Source of the DNA: Myxococcota bacterium
GTDB taxonomy: Bacteria; Myxococcota; B64-G9
NCBI GenBank assembly: GCA_022710975.1
Contig: JAKLGA010000026.1
Span: forward strand, 1 to 36,033
DNA length: 36,033 nucleotides
Direction: 5' to 3'
This document shows positions 4,357-35,052 of this stretch, in pieces. The notes beneath the pieces are model-generated. The model worked only from the letters and a program-made list of their open reading frames with translations. It did not search any database and had not been told where the DNA came from. The translations under genes and the position numbers were made by a program. The first letter of the stretch is position 1. The number at the start of each line of letters is the position of its first letter.

Positions 4357-4502
4357 GGCAGGTCTTCCGGCTCGCGGATCGTCCTACTCCCGGCGCCTTC
4401 CCACCCCGGCTCCCGGCCGGGGCAGTGGCACGACTTCACCGGTTTCGTCCCCGCTTACGGCGGCGGGACCGCGTCGGCTTTGCACCGACTTCCCTGGCAC
4501 CG
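4357..4502 (-). ncRNA. Cobalamin riboswitch aptamer
   Basis: Read on the minus strand, the segment carries the conserved blocks of the cobalamin riboswitch in order: GTGCCAGGGAAG, then CGGTGCAAAGCCG, then CCCGCC and GTAAGCGGGGACGA, then the B12-box core GCCACTG, then GGGAAGGC, then GGAGTAGGACGATCCGCG, closing with GAGCCGGAAGACCTGCC. The 5' GTGCC and 3' end frame the aptamer. It sits about 50 nt upstream of the lipoprotein that begins the TonB receptor operon, which is where a BtuB-type riboswitch is expected. A possible promoter further upstream (TTTACT, 18 bp, TACGCT, about 4520-4550 on the minus strand) is weak. Confidence 0.95.
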
Positions 4503-4605
4503 CGCCCTCGCAGCCGGCAGCGTACGCCGCGGAGCGCCGGCGAGTAAAGCGCAAAAAGCGGATCGAGGACGGCCCGCTTTTCCCGAGGAAAATCCAGGGC
4601 CCCTG

Positions 4606-4614
4606 TGGTAGGAT
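4606..4614 (+). promoter_or_regulatory. Possible extended -10 promoter for the kinase gene
   Basis: TGG-TAGGAT (4606-4614) matches an extended -10 element, with the hexamer agreeing with TATAAT at four of six positions. No convincing -35 hexamer lies 16-18 bp upstream, which extended -10 promoters can tolerate. It is the best plus-strand candidate in the region divergent from the cobalamin operon and lies 83 bp before the chosen kinase start. An in-frame ATG at 4613 overlaps it and is therefore unlikely to be the start. Confidence 0.3.
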
Positions 4615-4696
4615 GCCCCGCGATGTCTCCCTGCCCCGGCGAGACCTCGCGGGATCCAGCGTCCATTCTGCCGGGGCCGAGGTGCTTGGCAGACCC

Positions 4697-11973: not shown

Positions 11974-12042
11974 CTCTCCGCTCTCCTCCCGGCCAGCGCC
12001 CCGCGGATCGGGATCCCGCTGGCCCCGGGTCGTGTTTCCAAT

Positions 12043-12061
12043 CCGCCCGAAGAACGGGCGG
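12043..12061 (-). promoter_or_regulatory. Stem-loop at the predicted transcript start of the PEGA gene
   Basis: Perfect 7 bp inverted repeat CCGCCCG/CGGGCGG around an AAGAA loop. It lies directly downstream of the minus-strand -10 hexamer at 12066-12071, so it would form the very 5' end of the transcript. It could stabilise the RNA or act as an operator dyad. It is not a terminator of any gene here, because both neighbouring genes start, not end, in this region. Confidence 0.4.
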
Positions 12062-12065
12062 AGGC

Positions 12066-12095
12066 ATTCTCGCGCTGGGCCCGCGGAGGTGTCAA
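12066..12095 (-). promoter_or_regulatory. Sigma-70-type promoter for the PEGA operon
   Basis: On the minus strand a perfect TTGACA (12090-12095) is followed after 18 bp by GAGAAT (12066-12071), which agrees with TATAAT at four of six positions. Transcription would begin near 12059, giving a leader of about 86 nt before the ATG at 11973. It is back-to-back with the sigma-54 promoter that serves the plus-strand genes. Confidence 0.55.
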
Positions 12096-12281
12096 CCGCA
12101 CTGACTGCCCTGAAGAGACGGAGGTGGCCCCGAACTTCCGGGGCGCGCGCGCCCGGTTGTGATTGGTCTTCACAGGTGTTCCCCACCGCCCCGCTGGCGC
12201 CGGCCGCCGGGAGATCGATGGCGCGGCCGCATCAGCTACCTCCCCGAGGCTTTCCGGGGCCCTAGGCGCCGCGACCAGGCG

Positions 12282-14467: not shown

Positions 14468-14478
14468 GCCGGGCTCAG
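14464..14478. terminator. Palindrome containing both convergent stop codons
   Basis: CTGAGCC-G-GGCTCAG is a perfect 15 bp dyad that spans the stop of the plus-strand barrel gene (14465-14467) and the stop of pbpC (14475-14477). The two genes end seven bases apart, so if any bidirectional terminator exists it must be here. There is no T-tract on either side, so the terminator role is uncertain. Confidence 0.3.
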
Positions 14479-16856
14479 CGGCGCACCTCGATGTGCACCG
14501 GCGCGCTCACCTCCCCGCGCCGGAGCAGCGCGGCGCGGATGGTGTGCGCGCCGGGTTGGAGCCGCCAGCGCGTCTCGTGGGGGAAGTCCACCCGGGCCAC
14601 CGGCAGCCCGTCGACCAGCCACACCACCGACTCCTCGCTGGGCTCGACCCGGGCCGAGAGCAGCAAGGTGGCGAACTCCGCGGGCGTCTCGGGATCCCAC
14701 TGGTAGCGCGCCCCATCGCGGGGCTCCTCCACCACGACCCTCGGGGCAGACGGCTGCGGGGGGGACGCGCACAGCGGGCTCAGCCGGGTGGGGGCCACCT
14801 CCAGCCGCGCGGCCCGGGCCCAGCGCGTGTAGCGCTCGGGCAGGTCCAGCAGCGCCCGCCGCTCCACCACGCCGGGCGGGCAGGCCGGCGTGGCCCGCAG
14901 GCCGTTGCGGCGGTCCAGCGGCACCCGCCTGTGGTAGGCGCACGGCTCGAGCGGCTCGCTGCCCGGGGCGAAGTGCTCGGTCCGCCGGTGGGGGCAGTCC
15001 GGGCCGGCCAGCCGGCCCGACAGCGCGCAGACGGTCCGGCCCACCCAGCCCTCGGGCGGCGGGAAGGAGTCGGCCACGGCGCGGTGGGGCCGCAGCGCGG
15101 GCATCAGCCGGTCGAGGATGTCGTGCAGCGGGCGGGCCGCGCCGTCCAGGCCGCCCACCCGGTTCATGCGACGCCAGTCGTGGTTGCCCACCCACACGCC
15201 GACCAGCAGGCGGTCGCTGTAGGCCACCGCCCAGGCGTCCCGGTAGCCCTGGCTGGTGCCGGTCTTGATCGCCACCGCGTAGTCGTAGTCGAGCGCGCTG
15301 CCCTCGGAGAAGCTGGGCTGGCGCGCGCCTGGATCGGCCAGGATGTGGGTCACCAGCTGGGCCGTGCCCGCGCCGAGCAGCCGGCGCGGCTCCGGGGGCC
15401 GCTCGTCCAGGAAGAAGCGCGGCGGGAGCGCGCGACCCTGGTTGGCCAGCACCCCGTACAGACCCACCAGCTCCTCCAGGCTCAGGTGCAGGTTGCCCAG
15501 CGCCAGGCCCAGGCCGTAGCGCTCGGGCTCGAAGCTCACCCCGCCCACCCCGGCCTCCGCCAGGAAGGTGAGCATGGGCTCCACGCCGACCTGGGCCAGC
15601 ATCTGCAGGGCCGGGATGTTGCGGGAGTTGCCCAGGGCCGAGCGCAGCAGCAGCGGGCCGAGGAAGGTGTGTGAGATGTTCTCGGGGCGGTACGGCACCC
15701 CGGAGCGCCGCTCGAACTCCACTCGCACGTCGGCCAGCTCGGTGGCCGCGGTGGCCTGACCGCGATCGATGGCCAGGGCGTAGACGAAGGGCTTCAGCGC
15801 CGAGCCCGGCGGCCGGCGCGTGCGGGCGAAGTCGATCGAGCCGCGCGCCTCGCGATCGAAGTAGTCCAGCGAGCCGACGTAGGCCAGCACCTCGCCCGTG
15901 TCCCGATCCAGCACCAGCGCCGCCGCGTTGCCCGCCCCGCGCGGGCGCAGGCGGGCCAGGTGGGCCTCCAGGGCCGCGACCACCTGGCGTTGCAGGTCGA
16001 GATCCAGGCTGGCCCGCTGCACGAAGGCCTGCCGCCCGGCCGCCAGCTCGGCCCAGCGCAGGGCGGCGTGCAGGGCCGCCGGGCACCTGGCCGGGCGCGG
16101 CGTCAGGCGGAGGTCGCTCGCCAGGGCCTGGCGGAGCTCCTCGGCCGGCAGCAGACCGCGTCCGGCCAGCGCGCGCAGGATGCGCCGCGCGCGCCGCAGG
16201 CTTCGCCGCAGCCCGTCCGGAGAGTAGGGGTCCATGCGCCCGGGCGCCTGGGGCAGCCCCGCCAGGAAGGCCGCCTGCAGCCAGGACAGATCCTCGACCG
16301 GCTTGTCGAAGTAGTAGCGCGCCGCCCGCGCCACCCCGTGCACCCGGTTGCCGTAGGGCGCCACGGTCAGGTAGTGGCGCAGCACCCGCTCGTGGCCGTG
16401 ATCGCGGACGAGCAGCAGCGCCTCGGCCGCCTCGCGGGCCTTGCGCCACAAGGTGCGCTCTCCGGGCGAGCGCATGCGCGCCACCTGCATGGCGATGGTC
16501 GAGGCGCCCGAGATGATCCGGGCGTGGCGGACGTTCTGCTGCAGCGCCCGCAGGAGGGAGGGCAGGTACACCCCCGGGTGCTCGAAGAAGCGCCGGTCCT
16601 CGGTCTCCAGGGTGGCCACCACCACGCGCTCCGGCAGCGTGCGCGGCGGGGGCCAGAAGCCGAGCAGGTCATCCTCGCCCGGCACCTCGGTCAGGAACTC
16701 TCCGCGCCGGTCCACCACCAGGCATGAGGGCGCGGGCAACGGCAGGTCGCGCCGCAGCGACAGGGCGAAGGCCAGCACCGCCGCCGCCGCGACCACGGCC
16801 CCGCCGGTGGCGAGCACCACCAGCCGCGCCGTGCGCCTGTCCAGGCCCGCGCCCAC
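14475..16856 (-). CDS. pbpC: Penicillin-binding protein 1C (bifunctional peptidoglycan synthase)
   Basis: A 793-residue class A penicillin-binding protein; E. coli PbpC is similar in size. An N-terminal membrane anchor is followed by a GT51 glycosyltransferase domain with E86-D-R-R-F-F-E-H93 and 'GASTIAMQVARM'. The transpeptidase domain has S352-A-L-K355, a serine-x-asparagine motif in 'GNSRNIPA' and K531-T-G-T. The C-terminal part carries the Cys-containing region and the beta domain found in PBP1C ('VVWLVDGLPVAR'). All catalytic residues are present. The GTG at 16856 is preceded by GGGAGGGG and lies 17 bp after the macroglobulin stop; upstream extension has no supporting signal. Pairing of PBP1C with a bacterial alpha-2-macroglobulin is a known arrangement, thought to combine protease trapping with repair of the cell wall. 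Confidence 0.95.
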   Translation of the reverse strand: MGAGLDRRTARLVVLATGGAVVAAAAVLAFALSLRRDLPLPAPSCLVVDRRGEFLTEVPGEDDLLGFWPPPRTLPERVVVATLETEDRRFFEHPGVYLPSLLRALQQNVRHARIISGASTIAMQVARMRSPGERTLWRKAREAAEALLLVRDHGHERVLRHYLTVAPYGNRVHGVARAARYYFDKPVEDLSWLQAAFLAGLPQAPGRMDPYSPDGLRRSLRRARRILRALAGRGLLPAEELRQALASDLRLTPRPARCPAALHAALRWAELAAGRQAFVQRASLDLDLQRQVVAALEAHLARLRPRGAGNAAALVLDRDTGEVLAYVGSLDYFDREARGSIDFARTRRPPGSALKPFVYALAIDRGQATAATELADVRVEFERRSGVPYRPENISHTFLGPLLLRSALGNSRNIPALQMLAQVGVEPMLTFLAEAGVGGVSFEPERYGLGLALGNLHLSLEELVGLYGVLANQGRALPPRFFLDERPPEPRRLLGAGTAQLVTHILADPGARQPSFSEGSALDYDYAVAIKTGTSQGYRDAWAVAYSDRLLVGVWVGNHDWRRMNRVGGLDGAARPLHDILDRLMPALRPHRAVADSFPPPEGWVGRTVCALSGRLAGPDCPHRRTEHFAPGSEPLEPCAYHRRVPLDRRNGLRATPACPPGVVERRALLDLPERYTRWARAARLEVAPTRLSPLCASPPQPSAPRVVVEEPRDGARYQWDPETPAEFATLLLSARVEPSEESVVWLVDGLPVARVDFPHETRWRLQPGAHTIRAALLRRGEVSAPVHIEVRR

Positions 16857-16873: not shown

Positions 16874-19800
16874 TCAGGGCGCTGCCTCCTGGCCGTCCTC
16901 TGCCGCGGGCGCCGCGCCGGCCGGCGCGGGCCCGATCTCCAGCCGCAGGCCCGCCCCGCGGCCGCGCAGCTCGGGGTGGTACATCTGCTCCGCCCACGGG
17001 GCCGGGTGCACGAACGAGCCCTCGGTGGTGGCCCGGGCGCGGGAGTAGAAGGCGTGGCTGCCCTTGGGCAGGTGCACGAAGTAGTAGCGCACCTCCTGAT
17101 CGAGTCTCTGGACGTAGTCAGGCCGCAGGCTGTCGGCCCGTGAGGGGCGGGCCTCGGCCGGGGCCGTCTTCAGCTCGGGGTTGAGCGGTTCGAGCCCGGC
17201 GGCGAACGGCACCACCAGGGCCACGTGGTACAGATCGCGCTCGCTGACCAGGCCGGTCTCCAGCTCGAGGATGTCGCCCACGCGCACGGAGCGCTTCTCG
17301 CCGGGCTTGTCCTCGAAGCGGGTGGGCTCGGCCCCGTCGGCGTGCAGGACCGTGGCGCCGCGGGTCACCAGGAAGCCCTGGCGCAGGGGCTCGGCCCGAT
17401 CGCCCGGGGTCTCGGGCAGGTAGCGGGCGCGCACCCGCACGCCCAGCTCGCCCCGGCCGGTGACGCCGAGCTCCACCGGCTTGTCGCCCTTCAGGCTGCG
17501 GCGCGCCACACGCGTGGCCGCGTCCAGCCTGAGCTCGCCGTCGCCGGCGATGGACACCACGGCCTGGCTCGGCGCGGCCTGGGCGCGATCCATGTAGGCC
17601 AGCAGCGCCAGGATGGAGCGCCAGTTGTCGTGCGTGCTGCCGAAGCCGCCCGAGGCCGAGGCGGCCGCGAGCAGCGCGTCGCGCAGCAGCGCCAGACGCT
17701 CGTGGGTCGGGTCGAGGCGCACCAGGCCCTCGAACACGCCCGCCAGGGTCGAGGTCGGGCTGCCCAGGTAGGCCCCGCCCCACTGCGTGCGGCGGGAGTT
17801 CAGCCCGCCGTAGACCGGCTTGCCCTGGACCAGCTTGAACACCACCGCCTTCCACAGGTCGTCCTTCAGCGCCGCCAGGTTCGTGCGGAAGAGCTCCGGA
17901 CGCTTGGCCATGGCCAGGCTGAGATCGGCCAGGCTGGCGGCGTCGAGGCTGCCCCGGTGCTGGTACAGCTCGAGCAGGTAGTGCTCGTCCATCTCGCCGA
18001 CCGCGGTCAGCGCCCGCAGGGCGGCGCTCTGCTGGTTGAAGCGGTAGTCGGGATCCAGGCCAGGGAAGTCCGAGCGCAGCACGCGCTTGAGCGCGTCGAC
18101 GGACCGCACCCACAGCTTGTCGTCGCTCTTCTGCCCCAGGCTCCGGGCCAGGAACATGAACTCCACCGCCTGGGCGGTCAGGTCCGGGTCGCCCGCCCCG
18201 CCCGGCCAGAAGGAGAAGAAGCCCTGGTCGTTCTGGTGGAGCGCCAGCTCCTCGGCCAGGCGGGCGACGTGCGGGCCGACCTGCAGCGCGTAGTGCTCGT
18301 TGAGCCCCAGGCGCTTGAGGGTCGCGCCCACCACCATCTGCGGGATGAGCCGCGACAGACGCTGCTCCAGGCAGCCGTGGGGGTAGCCCTCCAGGTAGTC
18401 CAGCCCGGCCATCACCTCCAGCACACCGGGCTCGCTGGAGACGAGCACCTCCTGCTCCAGGGTGCCGGGCCTGGCCTTCTCCGGCAGCGGCCGGGCCGGG
18501 ACCGGGCCGGCGCCCACCCGGGCGATGTAGGCGGACTCCTCCACGCCCCGGTCGGGCAGCACCGGGATCTCCACCTGGAAGGCGTCCCCCACCCCGTCGG
18601 ACAGGCGGGTGATGTCCATCTTGACCTGCAGCCTGTCGCCGTGCACCGCGTCGCGGGAGGCGGCCACCACCTCGGTGCGGTGGCTGTCGGCGCGGTTCTC
18701 GCGCAGCTCCACCCGCTGTTTGAAGGGCTGGGCGCGTGCCCCGCCCTCGATGGCGATGGTCACCAGGGCCGGGCCCGCCTTGCCCTCCACCAGCCGGCCC
18801 AGGCCGCCGGCCAGGAAGCGATCGCCCTCGCGCACGAAACGCGGGAGCTGGGGCTGGACGAGCACCGGCAGGCGCACCTTGAGCCGCGCCTCGCGCACGC
18901 CGAACCGGCCCAGCCCCGAGGCCGCCACCGCGCGCACCTTGAAGTTGGTCAGATCGTCCGACAGGGCCACCGGCACCTTGAGGCGTCCGCTGGGCCCCAC
19001 CGTGAGGGTGGCCTGGTAGTAGGGCACGGTCTGGAAGTTCTTGCGCACCCGGTGGCGGCTGCGCAGGCGCTCCGCGTCACCCTCGCCCCCGTCGCCGGCC
19101 GGCTCCTCGCGCAGCTCCAGCCGGCCCACCACCCGGTTGCGGCTGTCGCGCAGGCCGACCGTGCGGGCGTTGGGGTAGATGAGCTCGGTGAGCGGATCCA
19201 GGCTGGCCTCGTCGGCCAGCGCCAGCACCGCCTCGTCCACCAGCCACAGGGTCACCTCCCCCGAGAGCGGACGCTTGCGCTCGTCCCGCAGCCCGAGCTC
19301 GATCTCCACCGTCGCCCCGGGCCGGGCCGTCTCCGGCACCTTGAGCTCCACCTGCACCTGGTGGGCCACCGGCTCCACCTTGAGCTCCAGCGAGGCGCCC
19401 AGCGTCTCGGGCCGGTAGCGCGCGTCGCCCTCGGCGCCGCCGTCCCCCAGCCGCCCGCGCATCAGCAGCACGTGCAGCGGCAGGTTGGGCGCCATGTGCT
19501 CGCCGACGCGCACCGGGTGGACGGCCTTGCCGCCCTCCACCTGGAGCCACTCGTGGCGCACCCCGGCCGGGTCCTCGAGGATGACCAGCGCCTGGGCGCG
19601 CTGGAACGGGCTCTTGAGCACGAGCTGGGCCACCTCCCCCGGGCGGTAACGCTCCTTGTCGGTGCCCAGCTCGAACACCCCCTGGCTGGGCTTCTCCCAG
19701 GCCAGCGCCTGGGTGCCGCCCACGAACACGTCGGCCTCCAGGCTCTGCACCCGACCCAGCCGATCGCGCGCCACCAGCTCCACCAGGTACACGCCGGCCT

Positions 19801-22699
19801 GCTCGAGCTTGAGCGCCTGGACCACGGGCTGCGGGCCGGTGGTGAGCTCCAGCTCCTGCAGCAGCTTGTCCTCCTGCTCGGTCACGTAGGCGGCCTGGCC
19901 GGTGGAGAAGTCGGTCTCCCGCAGGTGGCTGTGCCAGGCGCGCCGGGACAGCCGCAGCTTGACCTTCTGGCCGGCCAGCGGCTTGTCGTCCACCCCGATG
20001 GCCACCACCTCGGGCTTGAGCTGGCCGGGATCCTTCAGGTAGCGCGTGAGCTTCATGCCCACCACGAAGGGCGGCAGGGCCCGGACCTCGTGCACCGCGC
20101 TGACGATCTGGTTGTCCGCCCCGGTCACGGTGGCCTCGAAGCGGTACAGGCGCGGCGAGCCGTCCAGGTCGAGCGCGGGGTTGACCTGCATGGGATCGCT
20201 GCCGTTCTCCCCGAGCTCGCGCTGCTCGCGGATGGTCTCGGGCGGGCGGGCCTGGCCCTCGCGGGAGAACTGCAGCGAGGAGGCGAACAGGTAGCCGTCC
20301 ATGCCCTTGGGCACGTGGTAGAGCGGCTGGCGGGTGACGGTCCAGTCGATCGGCTGGCCGGACACCGAACCGCCGGCGTAGTAGCGCGCCAGGGCCTTGA
20401 CCTGGAAGGGCTGATCGTTGGGCACCCGGTTGGGCCCCACCATCTGCACCTCGAAGGTGGGGATGCGGTAGGCCTCCACCTTGAAGGAGCGGGTGGCCAG
20501 CACGTCGTTCGAGGCCTTGAGCAGCAGGCTGGCCGTGTACTCGCCCGTGGGCGCGTCGGCCTCCTCGAACACCAGGTCGAAGCCCCGCAGGGGCGAGAAC
20601 TTCACCGGCCTGAGCCACTGCTTGCCGCCCGGGGCCTGGATGCGCACGGCGAAGCCGTCCTCGGCGCCCGGGTCGCGGTACTGACCCTGGACCTTCCGGC
20701 GCGCGAAGCCCTTCAGGTACACCTTCTCGCCGGGCCGGTAGATGGGGCGCTCGCTGAACAGGAAGCCCACCAGGCGATCGTTGGGGGGCGCGGGCGGATC
20801 CTGGGTGATCCACTGCAGCCACGAGCCCCAGAACGACCAGTGGTTGTTGGCGAAGTGGGGGGGCGGATCGCGCGGGTCGATCACCAGCACGTCCTCGCCG
20901 CTCTTGACCCACACCCGCCGCACCTGGCGCCAGGGGGCCTGGCGGGCGAGCACCGCGCGCCCCTCGGCGTCGGTCGCCAGGCGCACCAGCTCCTCCCGGG
21001 GCGGCTGGCGCCGCTGGCCGGCCTGGGTCGGCGGCGGGGGCTCGCGCACCACCTCGAGCAGCACCTCGGCCCCGCGCACCGGGCGGGCCTCGTCGAGGCT
21101 GCGCACGTAGAACACCACCCGCTCGCGCTCCTCCACGCTGGTCAGGCTGAGGTTGGTCACCTGCACCCGGACGTAGGAGCGCTCGGGCGGGCCCTGCAGC
21201 CGCCGCAGGCCCACCAGGTAGTGGCCCGGCCGGCGCGCGCCGACCGCCGCGTCCAGCAGCGGGCCCACGTCCAGCCCGAAGTGCGCCGCGGCGCCCCGAT
21301 CGGCCAGCGGCAGATCCACCACCCGCGACACCAGCGGAGAGCCCAGCAACCGCACGTGCTGGACGAGCGTACCCGCGTCCACCGTGCCGAAGTCCCAGAC
21401 ATCGCGAGCGGGCTCCTCGCCCGGGAAGGGCGGGGGCGCCTCCTCGGCCACGGTCACCGGGGAGGCGGGGAAGGGCCACAGGCCATCGTGCAGCGGATCG
21501 ATCCGGTAGATGCGCAGGTCGGCGCGCGGCTCGCCGTAGCCGGCCAGCGGGATCATGCGCGGGCCCTGGGCCTCCAGGATGGCCGAGCCCTGCTCCCAGC
21601 GCACGTAGGGCTGGCGCCAGCCGAGGTAGAAGAAGGCCTCCACCTCGCCCGGGTCCTGCAGGCCGCGGCCGGCGTCGTCGACCAGGGGCGCGGGCCTCAG
21701 GCTCAGGCGGTAGATGAGGTCGGGCACGAACTTGCCCTTGAGCACCACCCGCTTGCCGAACACCTCGTGGCGCAGCCCCTCCACGGCCGGCTCGAAGCGC
21801 ACCAGCTTCTTCAGCGCCGACAGGCCCAGCTCGCCCACCGGGGCGGAGAACACGAGCTGGGGCGTCTCGCCACCCGAGCCGCAGGCCAGCGCCATGTCCC
21901 GGGGGGCCTTGGCGCTGCCGCGCAGCGGGAGCTGGGCGCCGCCGCACTGGATGGCGCTCAGGTGGAAGGGCAGGCGGGTCGCCAGCCGGCCGGTCCACAG
22001 GACCTTGTCCTCCTCGCCCAGCGCCAGGCTGACCTGGACCAGCAGCAGCTTGCCCTCGGGCACCTCCTGGTCGAGCGTCACGGCGTAGGCGGCCGGCTCG
22101 CGGTGGTTCTGGCGGGGCAGCAGGGCCAGGCTGAAGGCCTCCACCACCCGGCGGGGCGAGTCGGCCAGGCCGGGCTGGTCACGCACCTCCAGCCGCAGCA
22201 TCTTCTTCAGCGCCGCGAGCTCCAGCGGGGCCGGGAAGGTGAGCGTCAGGCTGCGGAAGGGCAGCAGCTCGTCGCTGTCCGCCGGCGGGGTCATGGCGCT
22301 GGGGGCGGACATCATGGTGGTCAGCACCTGGCTCTGCCCGCCCGCCTTGACCAGGAAGCGGGCCAGGGCCGGCCACGGTTCGGCCGGGCGGAACTGGAGG
22401 GTGCGCCGGTCGAGCCAGGACCAGGCGCCGGGCCAGGCGGGCTGGATGGAGAGCCGCGCGGCGCCGTCGTCGGCCGGCCCGCGGCCGGGGCCGCGGTCGT
22501 CGGGGAAGTACACGGTGATCGGGTCGAAGCCCCGCAGGTAGCGCTCCGGCAACACGCTCACCCCACGCGCCTGCGGCCGCTGGCCGAGATCGCCCGGCTG
22601 GTAGGGAGCCGGCGCCTCGGCCGGTTGCGCCCAGGCCGCCCCGCACGCGAGCAGGAGCCCGACGGTCCACACGCCCACACCACCTCGCACGGCGTTCAT
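16874..22699 (-). CDS. Bacterial alpha-2-macroglobulin with intact thioester
   Basis: A 1941-residue exported protein (E. coli YfhM is about 1650). The signal sequence could be cut after AWA (residue 24) or lipidated at C19 (LLAC). The order of parts fits the family: N-terminal macroglobulin-like domains, a 'YRPGEKVYLKGFARR' domain near residue 650, the A2M domain with 'LTNFKVRAVAASG' near 1240, the thioester C1443-L-E-Q1446 in 'GYPHGCLEQ', and a receptor-like end with 'FYSRARATTEGSF' and 'AEQMYHPELRGRG'. The intact CxEQ implies covalent trapping of attacking proteases after bait cleavage. The start overlaps the stop of the upstream giant gene (ATGA, 22696-22699), and pbpC follows by 17 bp, so all three should be made together. 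Confidence 0.95.
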   Translation of the reverse strand: MNAVRGGVGVWTVGLLLACGAAWAQPAEAPAPYQPGDLGQRPQARGVSVLPERYLRGFDPITVYFPDDRGPGRGPADDGAARLSIQPAWPGAWSWLDRRTLQFRPAEPWPALARFLVKAGGQSQVLTTMMSAPSAMTPPADSDELLPFRSLTLTFPAPLELAALKKMLRLEVRDQPGLADSPRRVVEAFSLALLPRQNHREPAAYAVTLDQEVPEGKLLLVQVSLALGEEDKVLWTGRLATRLPFHLSAIQCGGAQLPLRGSAKAPRDMALACGSGGETPQLVFSAPVGELGLSALKKLVRFEPAVEGLRHEVFGKRVVLKGKFVPDLIYRLSLRPAPLVDDAGRGLQDPGEVEAFFYLGWRQPYVRWEQGSAILEAQGPRMIPLAGYGEPRADLRIYRIDPLHDGLWPFPASPVTVAEEAPPPFPGEEPARDVWDFGTVDAGTLVQHVRLLGSPLVSRVVDLPLADRGAAAHFGLDVGPLLDAAVGARRPGHYLVGLRRLQGPPERSYVRVQVTNLSLTSVEERERVVFYVRSLDEARPVRGAEVLLEVVREPPPPTQAGQRRQPPREELVRLATDAEGRAVLARQAPWRQVRRVWVKSGEDVLVIDPRDPPPHFANNHWSFWGSWLQWITQDPPAPPNDRLVGFLFSERPIYRPGEKVYLKGFARRKVQGQYRDPGAEDGFAVRIQAPGGKQWLRPVKFSPLRGFDLVFEEADAPTGEYTASLLLKASNDVLATRSFKVEAYRIPTFEVQMVGPNRVPNDQPFQVKALARYYAGGSVSGQPIDWTVTRQPLYHVPKGMDGYLFASSLQFSREGQARPPETIREQRELGENGSDPMQVNPALDLDGSPRLYRFEATVTGADNQIVSAVHEVRALPPFVVGMKLTRYLKDPGQLKPEVVAIGVDDKPLAGQKVKLRLSRRAWHSHLRETDFSTGQAAYVTEQEDKLLQELELTTGPQPVVQALKLEQAGVYLVELVARDRLGRVQSLEADVFVGGTQALAWEKPSQGVFELGTDKERYRPGEVAQLVLKSPFQRAQALVILEDPAGVRHEWLQVEGGKAVHPVRVGEHMAPNLPLHVLLMRGRLGDGGAEGDARYRPETLGASLELKVEPVAHQVQVELKVPETARPGATVEIELGLRDERKRPLSGEVTLWLVDEAVLALADEASLDPLTELIYPNARTVGLRDSRNRVVGRLELREEPAGDGGEGDAERLRSRHRVRKNFQTVPYYQATLTVGPSGRLKVPVALSDDLTNFKVRAVAASGLGRFGVREARLKVRLPVLVQPQLPRFVREGDRFLAGGLGRLVEGKAGPALVTIAIEGGARAQPFKQRVELRENRADSHRTEVVAASRDAVHGDRLQVKMDITRLSDGVGDAFQVEIPVLPDRGVEESAYIARVGAGPVPARPLPEKARPGTLEQEVLVSSEPGVLEVMAGLDYLEGYPHGCLEQRLSRLIPQMVVGATLKRLGLNEHYALQVGPHVARLAEELALHQNDQGFFSFWPGGAGDPDLTAQAVEFMFLARSLGQKSDDKLWVRSVDALKRVLRSDFPGLDPDYRFNQQSAALRALTAVGEMDEHYLLELYQHRGSLDAASLADLSLAMAKRPELFRTNLAALKDDLWKAVVFKLVQGKPVYGGLNSRRTQWGGAYLGSPTSTLAGVFEGLVRLDPTHERLALLRDALLAAASASGGFGSTHDNWRSILALLAYMDRAQAAPSQAVVSIAGDGELRLDAATRVARRSLKGDKPVELGVTGRGELGVRVRARYLPETPGDRAEPLRQGFLVTRGATVLHADGAEPTRFEDKPGEKRSVRVGDILELETGLVSERDLYHVALVVPFAAGLEPLNPELKTAPAEARPSRADSLRPDYVQRLDQEVRYYFVHLPKGSHAFYSRARATTEGSFVHPAPWAEQMYHPELRGRGAGLRLEIGPAPAGAAPAAEDGQEAAP

Positions 22700-25600
22700 C
22701 GTTCGCCTCCCGACGGCTGGAAACCGATACGCTGGAAGAAGTCACGCAGGTAGGCCTCGGGCACCTCGCTGCGCCCGCCGGCCAGGCCCAGCAGCACGGG
22801 CCGGAAGCGGGCCGGCCGCAGCGTCTCGGAGGTGCGCACGACCAGCAGGTACGAGCCCGCCCCGAGCTTCAGGAACTGCTGGCAGCCCTCCCCCACCAGG
22901 CGCTGGGCCTGGTCGAGCACGCTGCACTCCAGGACGTCCGCGTCCGCCCGCAGGCCCAGGCCCACCTCGCCGTCCGAGCGCAGCTCGAAGCGGTACAGGC
23001 GGGCCTCGCCCGGTGCCACCCAGTCCTCCTGGCCGATGCCCTCGCGGAGCTCGAGCGGCGCCTCGAAGGTCCAGCTCAACCCGCCGGCCAGCGGACGCCC
23101 GGCGAAGGCCCGCACCGACACCCGCCAGGTCCCGGCCGGCAACAGCCGGTGCAGGTCGCAGCCCTGGCCGGCCCCCTCCACCACCTCCAGGCCCCCCGGG
23201 CCGGACAGGGCGCACACCCCGGACTCGGCCCGCACCCGCACCACCGCGGGCCGGTCGAGCTGCAGGCTGCGCTCGACGCCCGCGCCGCCGAGCGCCACGA
23301 CCGCGCCCGGGGGCAGCGCGGAGGCCGGCCCGGGCCCGGGCGTCATGCCGAACCGGGCCGCGGGGATGCGCGCCGGAGCCGCCAGCACCACCTGCAGCGG
23401 GCCGGCCCCGTGCACCAGCCGGAGCATGCCGCCCTGGCCCGCCGGCAGCTCCAGCCCGCAACCCGCCAGCCGCCGCCCGTCGTCGAGCGTAAGCCGGCAG
23501 TGCTCCACCCCGGCCACCTCCAGCCGGCGCGCGACCGGCTCGGACACCACCCGCGCCAGCAGCTCGCCCGGCGCCCCGGGCCAGCGCTCCAGGAGCTCGC
23601 CCAGCTCGGCCCGGGTCTCGGGCCGCTCGAGCGCCAGCAGGCGCACCCGGGCCTGGCGGGCGGCGTCGGAGACGAGCCACAGCTCCCCGCCCTGGCCGGC
23701 CAGCGCGCAGCGCGCCAGGCGGCCGTCCGGCGGGCACACGTCCACGGCCCGGCCGGACGCGTCGGTCAGCACCGCCCAGCCGTCCGCGGGCAGGGTGAGC
23801 TCGAGCCGGAAACCGCCGCCGGGCAGCCTGAAGCGCGCGGTCGGACCGGACCACAGCAGCCGGCGCTCACCGGGCGCGAGCTCCAGCGGCTGGAGCTCGG
23901 CCGGCACCGCCCGCCGCGCGAGCACCGCCGGTCGGGTCGAGGCGCTGTCCAGCCACAGGGAGGCGAGCGTCTCCTGGCGCGGACCGCTGGCGGCGAAGCA
24001 GGCCGGGCCCTCCGCCCGCGCCACGCCGCCGCCCAGGCGGCAGGCGGGCGGCCAGGGCTCGCCCGGGGGCGAGCGCAGCTCGAGCAGGTGCAGGCTGGGG
24101 GCCGCGCTGCGCTGGCGCTGCAGCCTGGGGCGGGCCGGGCCGTCCAGGCCCAGGCGGAGCTCCTCGCGCGCCCCGAGGGCGGCGATCACCTCGTCCAGCG
24201 ACAGGTCCAGGCGGGCCTCCGGGCCGGTGGTCGAGAAGAGCACCTCGCCGGGCTCGAAGGAGGCCTCCGGGCCGCAGAACTCGAGCGGTCCGCTGCGACC
24301 CACCGGCAGGCACCACACCTTCTCCGCGGTGCGGTACAGCCCCGCGGCCGGGATGCTCACCCGGCCCGCGCGGCCCGCGGCCACCCGCCCGGTGGTCGCC
24401 TCCACCGGCCGCTCCACCAGCTTCAGCTGCGCGTCCGCCGACCAGCGCCGGTTCCAGAGCTTCAGGGTGTGCCGGCGCCCCTGCGCGTTCAGCAGGAACC
24501 CGCACACCCGCACGTCGAGCTGGCGCCCGAGCTCACGCCCGGCCTCGTCCTCCAGGCTGCAGGAGAAGGCCAGCCTGGAGCGCAGGCCGACCTCCAGCAC
24601 CGCGGCGCTGGCCGGGGGCGGCAGGCCGAGCTCGAGCACGTGCCCCTCGGGTTTCAGCACCAGCCCGTCCCGGGGCGTCTCCACGGGGCGCACCGGCAGG
24701 GTGTCCACGCTCACCCGGGTGACGCCCGCGCGACCGTTCTCGGCCTCCAGATCCAGGCGGTAGTCGCCCGGCTCGAGCGGCACGGCCACCAGGCAGTTCC
24801 AGTCCGCGGCCACCTCGCTGCCCTCGGCCACCAGCCGCCCCTGGCCGTCCAGCAGGCGGCAGCGCACGTCCGCCTGGCCCTCGGTCTTCAGGCGCACCAC
24901 CCCGCGGGCCGGCACCCGCAATGCGACCCGCCCGGGCACCGGCAGCTCCATGCCCAGGCCCGGGGCCAGCGCCTGCGTGCGCAGCTCGAGCTCGTAGCGG
25001 ATGCCCACGTCGCCGCGGGCGTGCTCGCTCACCAGGCGGTAGGATCCGGCCGCCAGGCGCAGCGCCTTGCCCTGCAGCGGCGGCGGACCCCCGGGCGGCG
25101 GCTGCACGAAGCGCGGCCGCTCCCGGTAGCCCTCGCCCTCGCCTTCGCCCTCGTACCCGTCCTCGCCTTCACCCTCCCCGTACCCGTCGCCCTCCGGGTC
25201 GCCCTCGCCCTCTCCGTCGCCCGGCTCCTCGCCCTGCCCGGGCTGGGCGCCCAGCTCCTGGGGCGGGATCAGCTCGACCACCTCGTCCGGCTTCCCGGCC
25301 GCCACCCGGAACAGGCGGGCCTGCATCCCGGCCGTCAACCGCAGGCCGAGCTCGAGCTCGGCCGCGAGCTCGAAGCGGAACTCGTCCTTGCCGTCCTCTC
25401 CCAGGTCGCAGGTGTAGGGGACGTTCGGCCGGATGGCGTGGGCGGCGTTCCCGGACAGCACCAGCGGGGGCCGGATCGGCTCCAAATACGTGCGGCGCAT
25501 GCTCTCCACGGTGAGCGGGAGCTGCATCCAGCGCAGCTCTCCGGGCGCGAGCTCCTCCTGGAGCTGGCAGGGCGACGGCACCGGGCGGAGCGGCCAGCCC

Positions 25601-27993
25601 TCGCGGTCCTCGAGCCGGCACTGCAGCCCAGCGCCCTGGGCGCTGGTGCCGAGCTGGTAGCGGCCGGCGGTCTTGACCGTCAGGCGCTGGACCACCAGCT
25701 CGTCGGCCTCGGCGCGGAAGAAGCTCTCGCCCTCGCCGGTCACCCCGAGCTTCTCCTGCACCGGCCGGGCGCGCACCTCGAGCCCGGCCCGCCCCCGGCT
25801 GGCGCCCAGGGCGGTGGCGGTCAACAGGTAGCGGCCGGGGCGGAGGTAGCTGGCCACCAGGCAGTTGCGGCCGCGGCCCGAGCCCTCGTCCGCGAACAGC
25901 CCGGCGAAGACGGGGGTGCGCACCCGGCAGGCGGTGGCCAGCAGCCCCTGCGTGCTCACGTGGTACAGGCCCGGCTGGTCCACCTGGAACACGGCCGAGT
26001 GGGACTGGCCGCGCTCGAAGTCGAAGAACAGGACCTGACCCGGGGTGAGGGCCGGCAGCGGCCGGGTCCGCGGCTCCACGCTCGCCAGGGCGGTCCGCGC
26101 GGGCGGTGGTATCGCGCGCAGCACCACCACGCCCAGCGGCTCGCCGCCGCGGTTCTCCAGCCACAGCTCGTCCCGGCCCGTCGGGGCCGGCAGGCGGCAG
26201 GCGCCGCCGCGAGCCTCGGCGCGGGCGCCGCTCGCCAGGCCGCAGGCGAAACCCGCCCCGCCCACCGAGCGCACCTCGAGCGCCGCGCGCAGGTCGAGCG
26301 GCAGGCGCAGGCTCTCTCCGGCCTCCAGGGTCAGGGGCAGCGGGCGGGCGAGATCGAGCGGCAGGTGCCGCAGCTGCAGGCCGCGCGCGCCGGCCTGGCC
26401 GCCGCGCGAGAACACCAGCCGGTAGCGGCCCTTGGCCTCCAGCGAGACCTTCGGCAGCCGGCACCCGCTCTTGGTGGTGAGCGCGCCGCCGCCCCCCGCG
26501 CCGAAGCCGAGCAGGGCCGTGCTGGCGTCGTTGGGGGTGAGGCTGAGCCGCTCGATGCCCGGCTGGCCCTCGTACAGGCGGAGCTCGTAGCGCCCCGCGG
26601 AGAGGGGCGGCTGCAGCCGGCAGGCCTTGTCGGTCACGTCCTCCGAGGAGGCCAGGCGCTTGCGCTCCACGCCCTCGAAGCGGAACAGCTCGCAGCGCGT
26701 CTCCAGCCCGCCGAGGGTGCGGATGTCCAGCACCGACGCCTTGTCGAGCTCGAACCACACGCTGGAGGCGTGCCCGTCGTGGTTGAAGGCGCGCTCGAAG
26801 CGCCGCCCGGGGGCCAGCCGCAGGAAGTCGGCCTCCCGGATGGGCCGCCGCACCAGGTGGGTGGACTCCAGCAGGCAGCCCAGCGGAGGGGCGTCCGGAT
26901 CCAGGGGCACGTCGTCGATCGCCACCAGGTAGTCCCCCGCGGCCGGCGCCTCGAAGGCGAGCTGCTGCGAGAGGTCGGTGTACAGATCGTCCGCCAGCAG
27001 CCCGCCGTCCACGGTCCCGGCCCAGCGCAGCAGGCCGGACGTGCCCGGCGCGCCGTGCAGCACCAGCGCGTGGGCGCCGTCGGCCAGGGAGCGGGCCTGG
27101 CACATGGGCACCACCGCCTTGGGCAGCACGCTGCACGCGGCCTGGGAGCGGAGCTGGCTGAAACGAGCCTCGCCCTGCCCCAGCGCCCACACCTCCAGCC
27201 CCACCGGGTGCTCCGGCGCCCGCTCGAGCGCCAGGAAGGCGGCCAGCGCCCCGCGCGGCGTCTCGAGGGCCAGCTGCCCGGTCGCGGGCAGCACGAAGGA
27301 CAGGGCGCGCTCGGCCGGGGCCGGGGGGAAGCCGTGGGTCACCTGCAGGGCGTTCGACTCCTGGCCCTCGGTCCAGCGCCGCTCCGCGGTGCCGTACACC
27401 GTGAGCCGGTAGTCCCCGGCCTCCAGCACCCCCTGGACCAGCCAGGCGTGCAGCGGCTGGCCGGGCCGCAGCGACGCCTCCCGCGCCTCGGCGGCCAGCT
27501 CCTCGATCCACTCCCCGTCGCGCCACACCCGCACCAGGCCGGCCGTGCGGCCCGTGACGCGCAGCGCGACCGGGGCCCGGGCCGGCAGGCGCAGCCAGTA
27601 GGAGACCTGCTGGCCCGGCTGGAGCTCGCGCTCGTCCACCTGGCCGGGGGCGAGCGCCACGGGCCGCGGCGAGATCTCGGCGAACGGCCGCGCGACCAGG
27701 GCCACCTGGCCCTTGGCCCGCTCCGGCGAGTGGAGCCGCACCCGGTACACGCCCGCGTCGAGGAACAGGTCCAGCTCGCAGTTCTCCTGGCCGGACTGCC
27801 CGGCCTGGGCGAACGGCCCGCGCAGGTGGTCGACCACCACGCAGGCGGTGCCCGAGTCCGAGCGGGCCGAAAGGTGCAGCATGCCGGCCTGGTCGAGCCG
27901 CAGGGTGGCCACCTGCTGCCCCTGGGCGGGCACCTGGGCGGGCTCCACGCTGACCTGCAGGGCCAAGAGGACCAGGAGTTGGGCTGCGAGCAT
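22696..27993 (-). CDS. Giant exported protein of Cys-pair beta modules, coupled to alpha-2-macroglobulin
   Basis: A 1765-residue protein I do not recognise as a named family. The start at 27993 has GGAGG four bases upstream; the N-terminus is hydrophobic (MLAAQLLVLLALQ) but lacks the usual positive charge. The rest is almost all beta, built of repeated units that resemble bacterial pre-peptidase (PPC) type domains. In most units a cysteine begins a strand (C-x-[LV]), a second cysteine follows 9-24 residues later, then often L/P-x-x-G-x-[YW]-R-[LV]. I count about 14 such pairs, for example 'CRLLDGQGRLV' to 'WNCLVAVPLEPGDYRLDL', and 'CRLTLDDGRRLAGC'. A Gly/Glu-rich acidic spacer interrupts the array near residues 920-955. 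No protease or other enzyme motif is visible. It precedes the macroglobulin with a four-base overlap, so a structural or ligand-binding partner in the same envelope process is inferred. Confidence 0.85.
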   Translation of the reverse strand: MLAAQLLVLLALQVSVEPAQVPAQGQQVATLRLDQAGMLHLSARSDSGTACVVVDHLRGPFAQAGQSGQENCELDLFLDAGVYRVRLHSPERAKGQVALVARPFAEISPRPVALAPGQVDERELQPGQQVSYWLRLPARAPVALRVTGRTAGLVRVWRDGEWIEELAAEAREASLRPGQPLHAWLVQGVLEAGDYRLTVYGTAERRWTEGQESNALQVTHGFPPAPAERALSFVLPATGQLALETPRGALAAFLALERAPEHPVGLEVWALGQGEARFSQLRSQAACSVLPKAVVPMCQARSLADGAHALVLHGAPGTSGLLRWAGTVDGGLLADDLYTDLSQQLAFEAPAAGDYLVAIDDVPLDPDAPPLGCLLESTHLVRRPIREADFLRLAPGRRFERAFNHDGHASSVWFELDKASVLDIRTLGGLETRCELFRFEGVERKRLASSEDVTDKACRLQPPLSAGRYELRLYEGQPGIERLSLTPNDASTALLGFGAGGGGALTTKSGCRLPKVSLEAKGRYRLVFSRGGQAGARGLQLRHLPLDLARPLPLTLEAGESLRLPLDLRAALEVRSVGGAGFACGLASGARAEARGGACRLPAPTGRDELWLENRGGEPLGVVVLRAIPPPARTALASVEPRTRPLPALTPGQVLFFDFERGQSHSAVFQVDQPGLYHVSTQGLLATACRVRTPVFAGLFADEGSGRGRNCLVASYLRPGRYLLTATALGASRGRAGLEVRARPVQEKLGVTGEGESFFRAEADELVVQRLTVKTAGRYQLGTSAQGAGLQCRLEDREGWPLRPVPSPCQLQEELAPGELRWMQLPLTVESMRRTYLEPIRPPLVLSGNAAHAIRPNVPYTCDLGEDGKDEFRFELAAELELGLRLTAGMQARLFRVAAGKPDEVVELIPPQELGAQPGQGEEPGDGEGEGDPEGDGYGEGEGEDGYEGEGEGEGYRERPRFVQPPPGGPPPLQGKALRLAAGSYRLVSEHARGDVGIRYELELRTQALAPGLGMELPVPGRVALRVPARGVVRLKTEGQADVRCRLLDGQGRLVAEGSEVAADWNCLVAVPLEPGDYRLDLEAENGRAGVTRVSVDTLPVRPVETPRDGLVLKPEGHVLELGLPPPASAAVLEVGLRSRLAFSCSLEDEAGRELGRQLDVRVCGFLLNAQGRRHTLKLWNRRWSADAQLKLVERPVEATTGRVAAGRAGRVSIPAAGLYRTAEKVWCLPVGRSGPLEFCGPEASFEPGEVLFSTTGPEARLDLSLDEVIAALGAREELRLGLDGPARPRLQRQRSAAPSLHLLELRSPPGEPWPPACRLGGGVARAEGPACFAASGPRQETLASLWLDSASTRPAVLARRAVPAELQPLELAPGERRLLWSGPTARFRLPGGGFRLELTLPADGWAVLTDASGRAVDVCPPDGRLARCALAGQGGELWLVSDAARQARVRLLALERPETRAELGELLERWPGAPGELLARVVSEPVARRLEVAGVEHCRLTLDDGRRLAGCGLELPAGQGGMLRLVHGAGPLQVVLAAPARIPAARFGMTPGPGPASALPPGAVVALGGAGVERSLQLDRPAVVRVRAESGVCALSGPGGLEVVEGAGQGCDLHRLLPAGTWRVSVRAFAGRPLAGGLSWTFEAPLELREGIGQEDWVAPGEARLYRFELRSDGEVGLGLRADADVLECSVLDQAQRLVGEGCQQFLKLGAGSYLLVVRTSETLRPARFRPVLLGLAGGRSEVPEAYLRDFFQRIGFQPSGGER

Positions 27994-28248: not shown

Positions 28249-29106
28249 CTAGGCCCAGGTGGCCACGTACTCGTGGCCGGACCAGCCCGGCGCGCTGCCG
28301 GCCTGGTCCTGCCAGCGCCCGGCCAGCCCCTGCTCCGCGGCCACCAGCCCGAAGTGGCACATGGCGATCCCCATGTCGATGCGCTGCAGGTCCACCCCCG
28401 GCAACAGGCCATAGCCGGGGTTGCGCACCAGGAACAGGTGGCACCGGCTGCGGTCCCGCTCGAGCCACATCCGCCAGGGTTGCTTGTTCGAGGCCGAGGG
28501 CGCCAGGCGCACGGCCTCCAGCGGCTCGCGCAGCGGGCCGGCCTCCAGCTCGGTGCAGGGGTCATCCGGGGCCCCCTCCACGCACAGCTCCGCGAAAGGC
28601 TTGCGGTTGTCCGAGTTGGCGAAGAAGCGCAGGGCCCGCTCCAGGAAGCGCTTATGATCGGCGGCCAGGCCCACCGGGCTGGCGGCGGGCACCACCTCGT
28701 CCGGCCGGGTGCCCAGCGCCCGGCCGAAGGCCCCGCGCTGGAAGGTCCCCCCCAGCCAGCAGGTCCCCAGCCCGAGATCCGTGGCCAGCAGCACCGCCCA
28801 CTCGAACACGTAGCCGAAGTCCTCCATGGAGCGGGCCGAGGCGCCCACCGCGCCGGTCAGGTAGTCCCGGGCGCCGCGGATGACCCCATAGGTGCCGAGC
28901 TTCTCCACCCCCTTGCGGGTCGGGTCGAAGGCCTGCAGCAGGCCGAGGCGCACCGGGCTGCCGAAGGGGGGCGCGGGGGGCGCGACCAGGCCCGCACGCA
29001 GGCGCTGGGCCAGCCCCTCCTCCAGCGGCTGCTCCTGGTAGGTGCGCACCGAGTACCGGGCCCGGATCAGCTCGCTCGCCGCTCGCCCGAACACCTGCCG
29101 CGCCAT
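28249..29106 (-). CDS. Nitroreductase-family protein (TM1586-like)
   Basis: A 285-residue cytoplasmic protein with no signal peptide. The N-terminal half carries 'RARYSVRTYQEQPL', the FMN-binding start typical of nitroreductases; the middle has 'FEWAVLLATDLGLGTCWLGGTF'; the C-terminal half has 'VRLAPSASNKQPWRMWLERD' and ends with 'MGIAMCHFGLVAAEQG'. This arrangement, with the SASNKQPW block late in the chain, matches the single-chain TM1586-type nitroreductases rather than classical dimeric enzymes. The likely role is flavin-dependent reduction of an unknown substrate. GGGAGGTGAGG precedes the ATG at 29106. It stands alone, divergent from the MORN gene, and has no clear functional link to its neighbours. 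Confidence 0.85.
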   Translation of the reverse strand: MARQVFGRAASELIRARYSVRTYQEQPLEEGLAQRLRAGLVAPPAPPFGSPVRLGLLQAFDPTRKGVEKLGTYGVIRGARDYLTGAVGASARSMEDFGYVFEWAVLLATDLGLGTCWLGGTFQRGAFGRALGTRPDEVVPAASPVGLAADHKRFLERALRFFANSDNRKPFAELCVEGAPDDPCTELEAGPLREPLEAVRLAPSASNKQPWRMWLERDRSRCHLFLVRNPGYGLLPGVDLQRIDMGIAMCHFGLVAAEQGLAGRWQDQAGSAPGWSGHEYVATWA

Positions 29107-32835: not shown

Positions 32836-35052
32836 CTACTGGAGCACGACGGTGATCGACCAGCCCTCGATGGCGCCGGTGTCGGCCGCGGCCTGGTCCA
32901 CCACCACCAGCCGCCACTCGCCCTCGGCGGCCAGGCCGGCGAACTCGGCCGGGGCGTAGTCGCGCTCCAGGCCCTGCGTGCCGCCGCCCTCCCTGGACTG
33001 CAGCGTCGCGGTGCTCCCGGCGTGCTCGAGGCGCACCACCAGGTCGCCGACGTAGGTGTGGCTGATGCGCGCGTGCACCAGCACCTCGGCCACCGTGCCG
33101 GCGCCGGTCAGGGTCACCGCGCTCGAGGCTCCGGCCGGGTCGTTGTCGGGGATCATCACCTGGGCGTCGCTCTGCCCGGTCAGGCTGCCGGCGGCCTCCC
33201 CTCCCTCGGTCAGCTCCAGGCTCCAGGACACGAGGCTGCCCGCGTCGTAGGCCGCGAGATCGGCCACCTCGAGCGTCCATTCCCCGGCGGCCGCCGCGCC
33301 GGCGAAGGCCGGCGCCGAGAACGTGGTGCGCAGGTCGTCGGTCCCGCCGCCGGTGCGGTCGTGGAGCACCTGGGTGACACCGCCGTGGGTCAGGCGGACC
33401 TGGAGATCGCCGATGTAGCCGTGGCGGATGTCGACGCTCACGGCGGCCTTGGTGACCGCGAAGGCGTCCGGGACCTGCAGGGTGCGCCGGATGCCGGCGG
33501 CCTGGCCGTCGGGGATGGCGGTCTCGCCGCTGTCGTCCGAGTAGGCGTGCTGCAGCGAGGTGCCCCCGCCCGACTGGCAGTGGGACGGCCCGTCCGGGTT
33601 GAAGCAGTTCGCCCGCACCCCGCTCACTCCGTAGATCTCGGCGTGGAACTCGGCCGGGTCGTAGTAGCGCGCCCGGCGATCGGCCGAGTCGTTCATGTAG
33701 ACCACCAGCTGGTTCCAGCTGAACTTGGACACGGACTGGCCCTGCATCAGCTTGCTGGCGGCCAGGAAGATGTTCTTGTACAGCAGCCAGGCGGTCTCCT
33801 GGGAGCCGGTGATGCCGGGCTCGGTGTTGTTGACCACGTCGGCAAAGCGCATGCCGTCCGGATCGCTGGCCGAGGTCTTCCGGGAGAAGACCTGCTTGGT
33901 GTAGTAGGCGTACGACCAGCAGGCGTCCATGAGGATGATCTGGTAGGTGTCCACCGGGTAGGAGTCCGGCTGATCGAGCACGGTCAGCGAGCCGTAGAAG
34001 GCGTGGCCGTTGTAGTACACGATCTCGTTCTCCAGCAGCGCCGACTTGAAGAGCTGGTTGACCTCCTCGCGCGGCCGGTGATCCTTGAGCGCCTCGGGGG
34101 TGTAGAAGTCGACCACCACCTCGAGCCCGCCCGGGTAGGTCTTGGTCAGCCTGTGTCCGAAGTTGTTGTCGAAGGTCTGGACGACCCGGAAGCCCTCGCT
34201 GGTGAAGTTGCCCTTGAACTTGTTGTAGCCGATCCAGCCCCAGTCGCTGCTGGTGAGATCGCCGTGGGTGATCTGGCCGAACAGCACCACCATGGAGATC
34301 TTCTTGTCCTGGGTGAGCAGATCGTACTCGGGGTAGACGTTGGGGGTGTCCAGCGAGGACAGGATCTCGTACTGGGTCGCGGCCAGGTCCACCCCGGCCA
34401 CGAGCGGGCAGCCCGGCTTGAGCGGGTCGAAGTAGTAGAAGTAGTTGTCGGCGTTGAGCTCGCTCGGATCCAGCGCGGCCCCGTCCGGGTCGGTGGCGCA
34501 GGCCGCCCCGCCCTGGGTGAACACCGTGCCAGGCTTGGCCGGGAACTGGAAGTCGACCCGCTTGCCGACCAAGTCGGCCGGGGTGAGGCCCTTGTCCGCC
34601 AGATCCTTCAGCTTGACCAGCGACTCGATCGAGGTGGTGTAGTCCAGCCAGATGCCGCCGGCGACCACCCGCACGTCGCGCACCGAGCTCTCGCCGTGCT
34701 CGAGGTTGAGGTCGAGCTTCTCGGACTTCAGCGGGTTGCGGGCGTACTTGAGCTGGGGCGTGGTGTACTCCTCGAGCTGCCAGCGGGAGGGCGCGCGCAG
34801 GGACGCGGCCAGGGCGTCGATCTCGGGCTGGCCCAGGCCGGTCGTGTCGATGAACACGCTCGAGGTGATCCTGGCCTCCATCTCGGCCGCCTTGTTGCTG
34901 ACGTAGCCGGTGTCCTCCTTGCCGTCCACGAAGGTCTCGTAGTCCAGCGGCTCGAACACGTTCTGCCCGCCGTCCCCGCACTGGGGCAGGACCAGGAGGC
35001 CGAGGACCAGCACGCACGCCAGGGCCAGACGCACCAACTTCAGATTCCGCAT
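32836..35052 (-). CDS. Exported lipoprotein with caspase-like (clan CD) His/Cys dyad and two P-domains
   Basis: A 738-residue exported protein, probably lipidated at the C of 'VLPQCGDGG' although Q before the Cys is unusual. Residues about 170-480 hold a caspase/gingipain-like core: a strand ending in histidine, 'ENEIVYYNGHAFYG' (H350), and 28 residues later a hydrophobic strand ending in Asp-Ala-Cys, 'YQIILMDACWSYAYY' (C378). This His then DAC order is the clan CD signature. The C-terminus holds two proprotein-convertase P-domains (about 509-614 and 631-738): both contain 'Y[IV]GDL' followed by [VQ]VRL, and 'EGWSITV' or its equivalent near the end. P-domains usually follow subtilisins or other secreted proteases, so a surface protease is inferred. 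A caspase fold is not proven without alignment. The start at 35052 has GAGGTG upstream and a good promoter. Confidence 0.8.
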   Translation of the reverse strand: MRNLKLVRLALACVLVLGLLVLPQCGDGGQNVFEPLDYETFVDGKEDTGYVSNKAAEMEARITSSVFIDTTGLGQPEIDALAASLRAPSRWQLEEYTTPQLKYARNPLKSEKLDLNLEHGESSVRDVRVVAGGIWLDYTTSIESLVKLKDLADKGLTPADLVGKRVDFQFPAKPGTVFTQGGAACATDPDGAALDPSELNADNYFYYFDPLKPGCPLVAGVDLAATQYEILSSLDTPNVYPEYDLLTQDKKISMVVLFGQITHGDLTSSDWGWIGYNKFKGNFTSEGFRVVQTFDNNFGHRLTKTYPGGLEVVVDFYTPEALKDHRPREEVNQLFKSALLENEIVYYNGHAFYGSLTVLDQPDSYPVDTYQIILMDACWSYAYYTKQVFSRKTSASDPDGMRFADVVNNTEPGITGSQETAWLLYKNIFLAASKLMQGQSVSKFSWNQLVVYMNDSADRRARYYDPAEFHAEIYGVSGVRANCFNPDGPSHCQSGGGTSLQHAYSDDSGETAIPDGQAAGIRRTLQVPDAFAVTKAAVSVDIRHGYIGDLQVRLTHGGVTQVLHDRTGGGTDDLRTTFSAPAFAGAAAAGEWTLEVADLAAYDAGSLVSWSLELTEGGEAAGSLTGQSDAQVMIPDNDPAGASSAVTLTGAGTVAEVLVHARISHTYVGDLVVRLEHAGSTATLQSREGGGTQGLERDYAPAEFAGLAAEGEWRLVVVDQAAADTGAIEGWSITVVLQ

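Follow-up and report, generated by a model that had tools for sequence, protein, structure and literature searches.

Closest described systems and the operon in the window

Bacterial alpha-2-macroglobulins (A2Ms) resemble the complement/A2M proteins of innate immunity. In the Type I locus (YfhM/ECAM-PbpC, SaA2M), a bait-region A2M, which carries the CxEQ motif in most members, is followed by pbpC, and the A2M and PBP1C have been proposed to act in a trap-and-repair manner (PMC4498604). The Type II Mag operon of Pseudomonas aeruginosa (MagABCDEF) comprises six genes, with neither PBP1C nor a PPC array, and encodes a lipobox-free A2M, MagD, together with operon partners of 26-60 kDa on which it depends, including MagB, a protein with a transmembrane helix that localises and stabilises MagD (PMC5764988). 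MagD belongs to a periplasmic defence and is protective against wall-degrading T6SS effectors (PMC12663445).

The window, a stretch of 36,033 nucleotides from a Myxococcota bacterium, contained an operon encoding a giant protein of 1765 residues (hereafter, the giant), an A2M, and a PBP1C in this order, all on the minus strand (Table 1). The giant open reading frame was found where the earlier note, which left the strand unstated, had placed it; an SD-like CTGGAGG precedes its ATG, and the four-base coupling claimed for it with the A2M gene is an exact ATGA overlap. The A2M matched PF07703 and PF00207, with GCLEQ at residues 1442-1446, and the PBP1C scored just under the cut-off of TIGR02073 (E 1e-146, 490.3 bits against 494.2).

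The window therefore has the Type I features of an A2M with a bait region and CxEQ (GCLEQ) and an adjacent pbpC. It differs from the Type I locus in that the giant comes first and that the A2M orthologues are predicted not to be lipoproteins; the A2M is only about 25-32% identical to canonical myxobacterial ones, aligning mostly from residue ~640. An A2M subfamily whose members mostly lack a lipobox, together with an operon partner, is reminiscent of the Mag operon, whereas the thioester-less A2M and six-gene mag operon that define Type II were not found in the window, where a thioester motif and PBP1C are present. No published description of the giant was found in the literature searched, and it is a real, conserved, and apparently undescribed member of a type of system already known. 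A gene for a TM1586-type nitroreductase (28249-29106, minus strand) lies upstream of the operon.

Table 1. Features of the giant-A2M-PBP1C operon and of the giant protein in the window
Feature	Positions	Strand	Residues and description	Basis
PBP1C	14475-16856	minus	Transglycosylase, transpeptidase, and BiPBP_C; likely GTG start at 16856, 17 nt past the A2M stop	
A2M	16874-22699	minus	1941 aa; GCLEQ thioester motif, bait-region domain, MG domains; overlaps the giant by 4 bp	
Giant, very probably a PPC array; first operon gene	22696-27993	minus	1765 aa; ATG at 27993, stop at 22696-22698	
Predicted N-terminal export signal	27947-27993	minus	~1-16; no lipobox	Sequence; like hydrophobic N-termini in orthologues
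Module 1	27683-27912	minus	28-104; C51-C72	hhalign group, AF2
Module 2	27329-27681	minus	105-222; no Cys, still homologous	hhalign, AF2
Module 3	27005-27312	minus	228-330; C287-C298	AF2, conserved Cys
Module 4	26357-27003	minus	331-546; C373/C511 (probable pair) around inserted module 5	Cys conservation, DSSP
Module 5	26519-26811	minus	395-492; C434-C458; inserted in module 4	Cys alignment
Module 6	26105-26346	minus	550-630; C584-C599	AF2, Cys conservation
Module 7	25760-26031	minus	655-745; C689-C711; region matching PPC proteins	Family HMM, hhalign, Cys alignment
Module 8	25469-25731	minus	755-842; C792-C809	hhalign, Cys alignment
Module 9	24980-25461	minus	845-1005; no Cys	Sequence
Acidic Gly/Glu-rich insertion splitting module 9	25079-25281	minus	~905-972; short in several relatives	
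Module 10	24689-24966	minus	1010-1102; C1045-C1067; region matching PPC proteins	Family HMM, hhalign, Cys alignment
Modules 11-17	22781-24672	minus	1108-1738; C1145-1164, C1228-1240, C1318-1332, C1420-1429, C1499-1512, C1594-1612, C1690-1704	AF2, conservation; hhalign for 11, 16, 17
C-terminal helix	22727-22761	minus	~1745-1756, VPEAYLRDFFQRI; outside the modules	AF2 helix, moderately conserved

Co-inheritance of the giant, A2M, and PBP1C

Relatives of the giant were recovered by an alignment-based scan of genome contigs, a scan with the single window sequence having found none. The loci were gathered by the giant alone, and neighbouring genes were not a selection criterion. As the claim of a conserved A2M/PBP1C neighbourhood had anticipated, the next gene was an A2M of this subfamily in every testable contig, that is, in all 84 loci that continue for 1 kb or more downstream of the giant (some genomes were reached twice via two collections, and 67 of the A2Ms are distinct), and homologues lacking the A2M association were not found. 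PBP1C was also present in 70 of the 73 loci with at least 7.5 kb downstream; the others were L039, a fuller copy of which (L064) has PBP1C further on, and L079 and L081, in which the giant and A2M are present and PBP1C is not directly behind them. In locus L059 (3134-8352), the giant is split across two frames, possibly through a frameshift in a metagenome assembly.

Among 117 sampled Myxococcota genomes, all 17 with a close A2M (at least about 860 bits) carry the giant, and the giant-free genomes have only distant A2Ms (about 25-32%). The same four genomes among 385 Alphaproteobacteria hold both the giant and the close A2M. The giant and A2M trees have 43 of 47 splits in common, with a distance correlation of r=0.991, and Rhizobium plasmids bear the whole trio, annotated as 'LprI family' or 'hypothetical'. 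At the level of sequence comparison, these results show that the operon is inherited as one unit, and the three products in all likelihood form a three-part functional unit. Neutral adjacency by hitchhiking, which we rejected as having almost no probability, is contradicted by the reciprocal exclusivity of the giant and the A2M subfamily and by the persistence of the association in two phyla, on plasmids of Rhizobium, and following what appears to be a transfer into Alphaproteobacteria.

Thioester motifs and signal peptides of the linked A2Ms

The thioester motif is intact in most giant-linked A2Ms, unlike in Type II Mag. Some giant-linked A2Ms differ from the Type I locus in having lost the thioester Cys, which is replaced by Ser in Rhizobium (GSTEQ in L037, L038, and other Rhizobium loci) and by Asn or Gly elsewhere. 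A lipobox-like match was found in only 8 of the 67 giant-linked A2Ms, and in most of these it lies near the beginning of the signal peptide and is followed by an AxA-type site; by contrast, giant-free A2M-PBP1C pairs had a lipobox in 18 of 21 cases by pattern and in 21 of 21 by eye. The Fisher p of 6e-10 for this contrast overstates independence, as it mainly compares two A2M clades rather than many events. The N-terminus of the window A2M, LLLACGAAWAQ, fits a lipobox and an AxA site alike, and nearly all of its orthologues have no lipobox. Judged from their N-termini, giant-linked A2M orthologues are thus shown to have predicted ordinary cleaved signal peptides, and giant-free PBP1C-linked A2Ms to be predicted lipoproteins. 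The window genome contains six A2M genes, and its second A2M-PBP1C pair (L147, 7788-16282, G000:C5), which is included in the lipobox count, has a canonical lipoprotein A2M and no giant.

The position of the giant as the overlapping first gene, and the need of MagD for MagB and MagE for its stability (PMC5764988), would also fit a folding or assembly factor for the large A2M that is not part of the working trap. We consider this very improbable, because canonical A2Ms exist without a giant and a chaperone built of non-catalytic modules and weighing about 190 kDa would be extravagant.

Modular architecture of the giant

AF2 models of the giant, run on two halves cut inside module 9, reached pLDDT 90.0 with pTM 0.81 and pLDDT 87.6 with pTM 0.68, and consisted of nearly all strand in tandem beta-sandwiches. 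The earlier note had described about 14 disulfide-type modules. The repeated beta modules were recovered, and their number is better given as about 16-17, 15 with a Cys pair and two without. Thirty of the 31 Cys fall into 15 pairs, comprising 14 short-range pairs and the presumed long-range pair C373/C511. Greedy pairing at 9-24 residues gave 14 Cys pairs, against 5.4 on average, and never more than 12, when the Cys were placed at random 20,000 times. DSSP on the AF2 models agreed with the claimed C-x-[LV] at the start of a strand and placed the second Cys at the strand that follows.

Module profiles were made from an alignment of 84 sequences (83 deduplicated homologues and the window giant), and 15 modules were compared by hhalign. 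Nine of these (1, 2, 5, 7, 8, 10, 11, 16, and 17) joined at >80% probability, whereas none of 255 controls (105 reversed-module and 150 A2M-window comparisons) exceeded 50%. Similarity between modules is thus as low as had been claimed, and it is not detectable across all of them, since modules 3, 6, and 12-15 joined no hhalign group. Whenever two homologous modules that both carry Cys were aligned, their Cys coincided, and the pairs are intramodular, at equivalent sites of homologous modules, also in line with the earlier note. Cys alone do not account for the module matches, as profiles built only from Cys-free sequences still grouped six modules. C434 and C458 of module 5 align with the Cys of modules 1, 7, 8, 10, and 16, fixing them as a module pair, which leaves C373 and C511 as the probable bracketing pair.

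Relationship to PPC domains

No Pfam, NCBIfam, or PADLOC family reached its cut-off on the window giant, which bears out its description as unrecognised. A Pfam TrAA12 match was set aside as low-complexity, covering the acidic linker 915-955; the family profile, searched against PDB sequences, yielded no more than weak matches to epimerases, and reading the giant as an anti-phage system was dropped, there being no PADLOC match. PF04151 likewise did not exceed the Pfam cut-off in the window giant, and it is missing from the families reported for 18 homologues.

The PPC-like nature claimed for the modules was borne out by structure and by profile. Foldseek matched giant modules to PPC/collagen-binding domains (5sv5, TMt 0.74, rmsd 3.6; 1nqj, TMt 0.75, rmsd 3.0), and both halves matched the 5iku tandem; ColG s3a-s3b was among the matched domains. 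The giant family HMM matched L106-L110, of which L106, L107, and L108 pass PF04151 and L110 falls just below its cut-off; the link runs via modules 7 and 10. The free-standing Myxococcota PPC proteins L108-L110 have the same C...NC positions as the giant modules, and the PPC proteins L105-L107 and L112 have no Cys there. Foldseek matches to complement C3/C5, A2M, CUB, SIDT1, botulinum HA70, and Cry were regarded as a general resemblance between beta-sandwich arrays and were not taken as homology, their TM over the whole chain being very low. The giant is therefore very probably a PPC array, with a fold in common with PF04151 and clostridial collagen-binding domains. PPC domains are usually found in few copies at the ends of secreted enzymes, whereas the giant has about 16-17 per chain, most below Pfam detection, and is tied to an A2M.

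PPC and collagen-binding domains of secreted enzymes bind matrix polymers, adhesins are typically long tandem beta-sandwich arrays, and disulfide stapling fits exposed proteins. The giant could accordingly be a surface or matrix adhesin, or a structural rod at or outside the outer membrane, guarded by the A2M or presenting prey or host polymers. This is improbable, since neither a sorting signal nor a beta-barrel or anchor domain was seen among the families of the 18 homologues, the giant is tied to an enzyme working at the inner membrane and wall, PBP1C, and its length is strongly conserved among relatives (about 1700-1900 aa), unlike adhesins of variable repeat number. A partner of the A2M inside the envelope remains the preferred reading.

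Cysteine pairs and LprI domains across relatives

Nearly all covered Cys pairs were present in 41 homologues besides the window giant, all from Myxococcota where the origin is known, whereas the other 42 homologues had no Cys pair or one at most. In L119 and L139, Phe stands in place of both Cys of the pair 1594/1612, the region of the pair 584/599 is lost in L142, and one-sided losses were also seen (L064, L055). With canonical A2Ms as the root, the A2M tree placed the Cys-rich group in a single clade (SH-aLRT 100), sister to the rest. The Cys-poor sister clade, consisting of Alphaproteobacteria and a few Myxococcota, keeps the module fold and the operon. Its Cys-poor Myxococcota (L051, L079, and L081) sit at the base of the alphaproteobacterial branch, which suggests that the operon may have been transferred from Myxococcota to Alphaproteobacteria. 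The label 'disulfide-type' thus holds for one clade and fails as a definition of the family, which is better defined by the array and the operon. With disulfides in nearly all of their modules, the giants of the Myxococcota clade would form a stiffer rod that resists proteases. The family provides a clean natural experiment on disulfide gain or loss over a whole multidomain protein.

An LprI-type N-terminus was identified in 21 giant homologues, and Pfam LprI (PF07007, LprI/DUF1311) in seven of the 18 scanned. It is the N-terminal domain of many alphaproteobacterial giants, and is absent from the window giant, from all examined Myxococcota relatives, and from some alphaproteobacterial giants. 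An immunity role against lysozyme-like T6SS effectors has been proposed for LprI/DUF1311 proteins (PMC12135965); however, ScwA, a salmonella LprI-domain protein, conferred no lysozyme resistance (PMC7933661), and an LprI domain is thus no proof of anti-lysozyme activity.

The LprI fusion with its proposed immunity function, together with the guarding of MagD against wall hydrolases (PMC12663445), could mean that the giant is itself an inhibitor, its PPC modules (and LprI, in giants that carry it) binding and blocking incoming wall hydrolases or lysozyme beside the A2M without contact. We regard this as unlikely: LprI has the patchy distribution given above, no giant module matched a known lysozyme inhibitor family, and the close one-to-one inheritance of the giant with just one A2M subfamily suggests a direct partnership. 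Within such a partnership, the LprI domain of many alphaproteobacterial giants may help to shield against peptidoglycan hydrolases or to control them.

Proposed role of the giant

Neither a transmembrane segment nor a lipobox was seen in the giant sequence, and the protein is presumably periplasmic; its C-terminal helix is a possible docking motif. We lean slightly towards the reading, taken whole with its mechanism, that an exported PPC-type jelly-roll array is the dedicated partner of one A2M subfamily in a three-gene operon. Along its length, the rod would bind the A2M and possibly also PBP1C or the wall, and it would hold the un-lipidated A2M trap at the envelope in place of a lipid anchor, a role comparable to that of MagB towards MagD. 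The A2M may capture intruding proteases or hydrolases, while PBP1C would patch the wall. Whether the giant has a scaffold or positioning role in an A2M-PBP1C envelope-defence operon is evenly poised. Rather more tentatively, the locus might represent a third, undescribed A2M-immunity architecture, in which the lipid anchor of the trap gives way to a giant PPC rod, stapled by disulfides, that brings the trap and the wall synthase together in one envelope complex. Such an architecture would have passed between Myxococcota and Alphaproteobacteria and acquired LprI in one branch, and its 15 disulfides would have been gained or lost nearly wholesale between two sister clades.

The giant has the look of a third component hitherto missing from an envelope-defence system already known in bacteria. 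As an obligate partner of 1750-1900 aa co-inherited over two phyla, it offers a concrete, testable component for the periplasmic organisation of thioester-containing, PBP1C-linked A2Ms.

Other genes in the window

The window also contained genes encoding a TonB-dependent receptor of 1015 aa (1213-4260, minus strand), a Ser/Thr kinase with one PEGA domain (4298-7198, plus strand), a 977-aa protein with an FGE-sulfatase (sulfatase-modifying factor) domain and a weak PKD match (7219-10152, minus strand), a 670-aa protein with several PEGA-domain matches (10174-12186, minus strand), and a 738-aa protein with proprotein convertase P-domain matches (32836-35052, minus strand).
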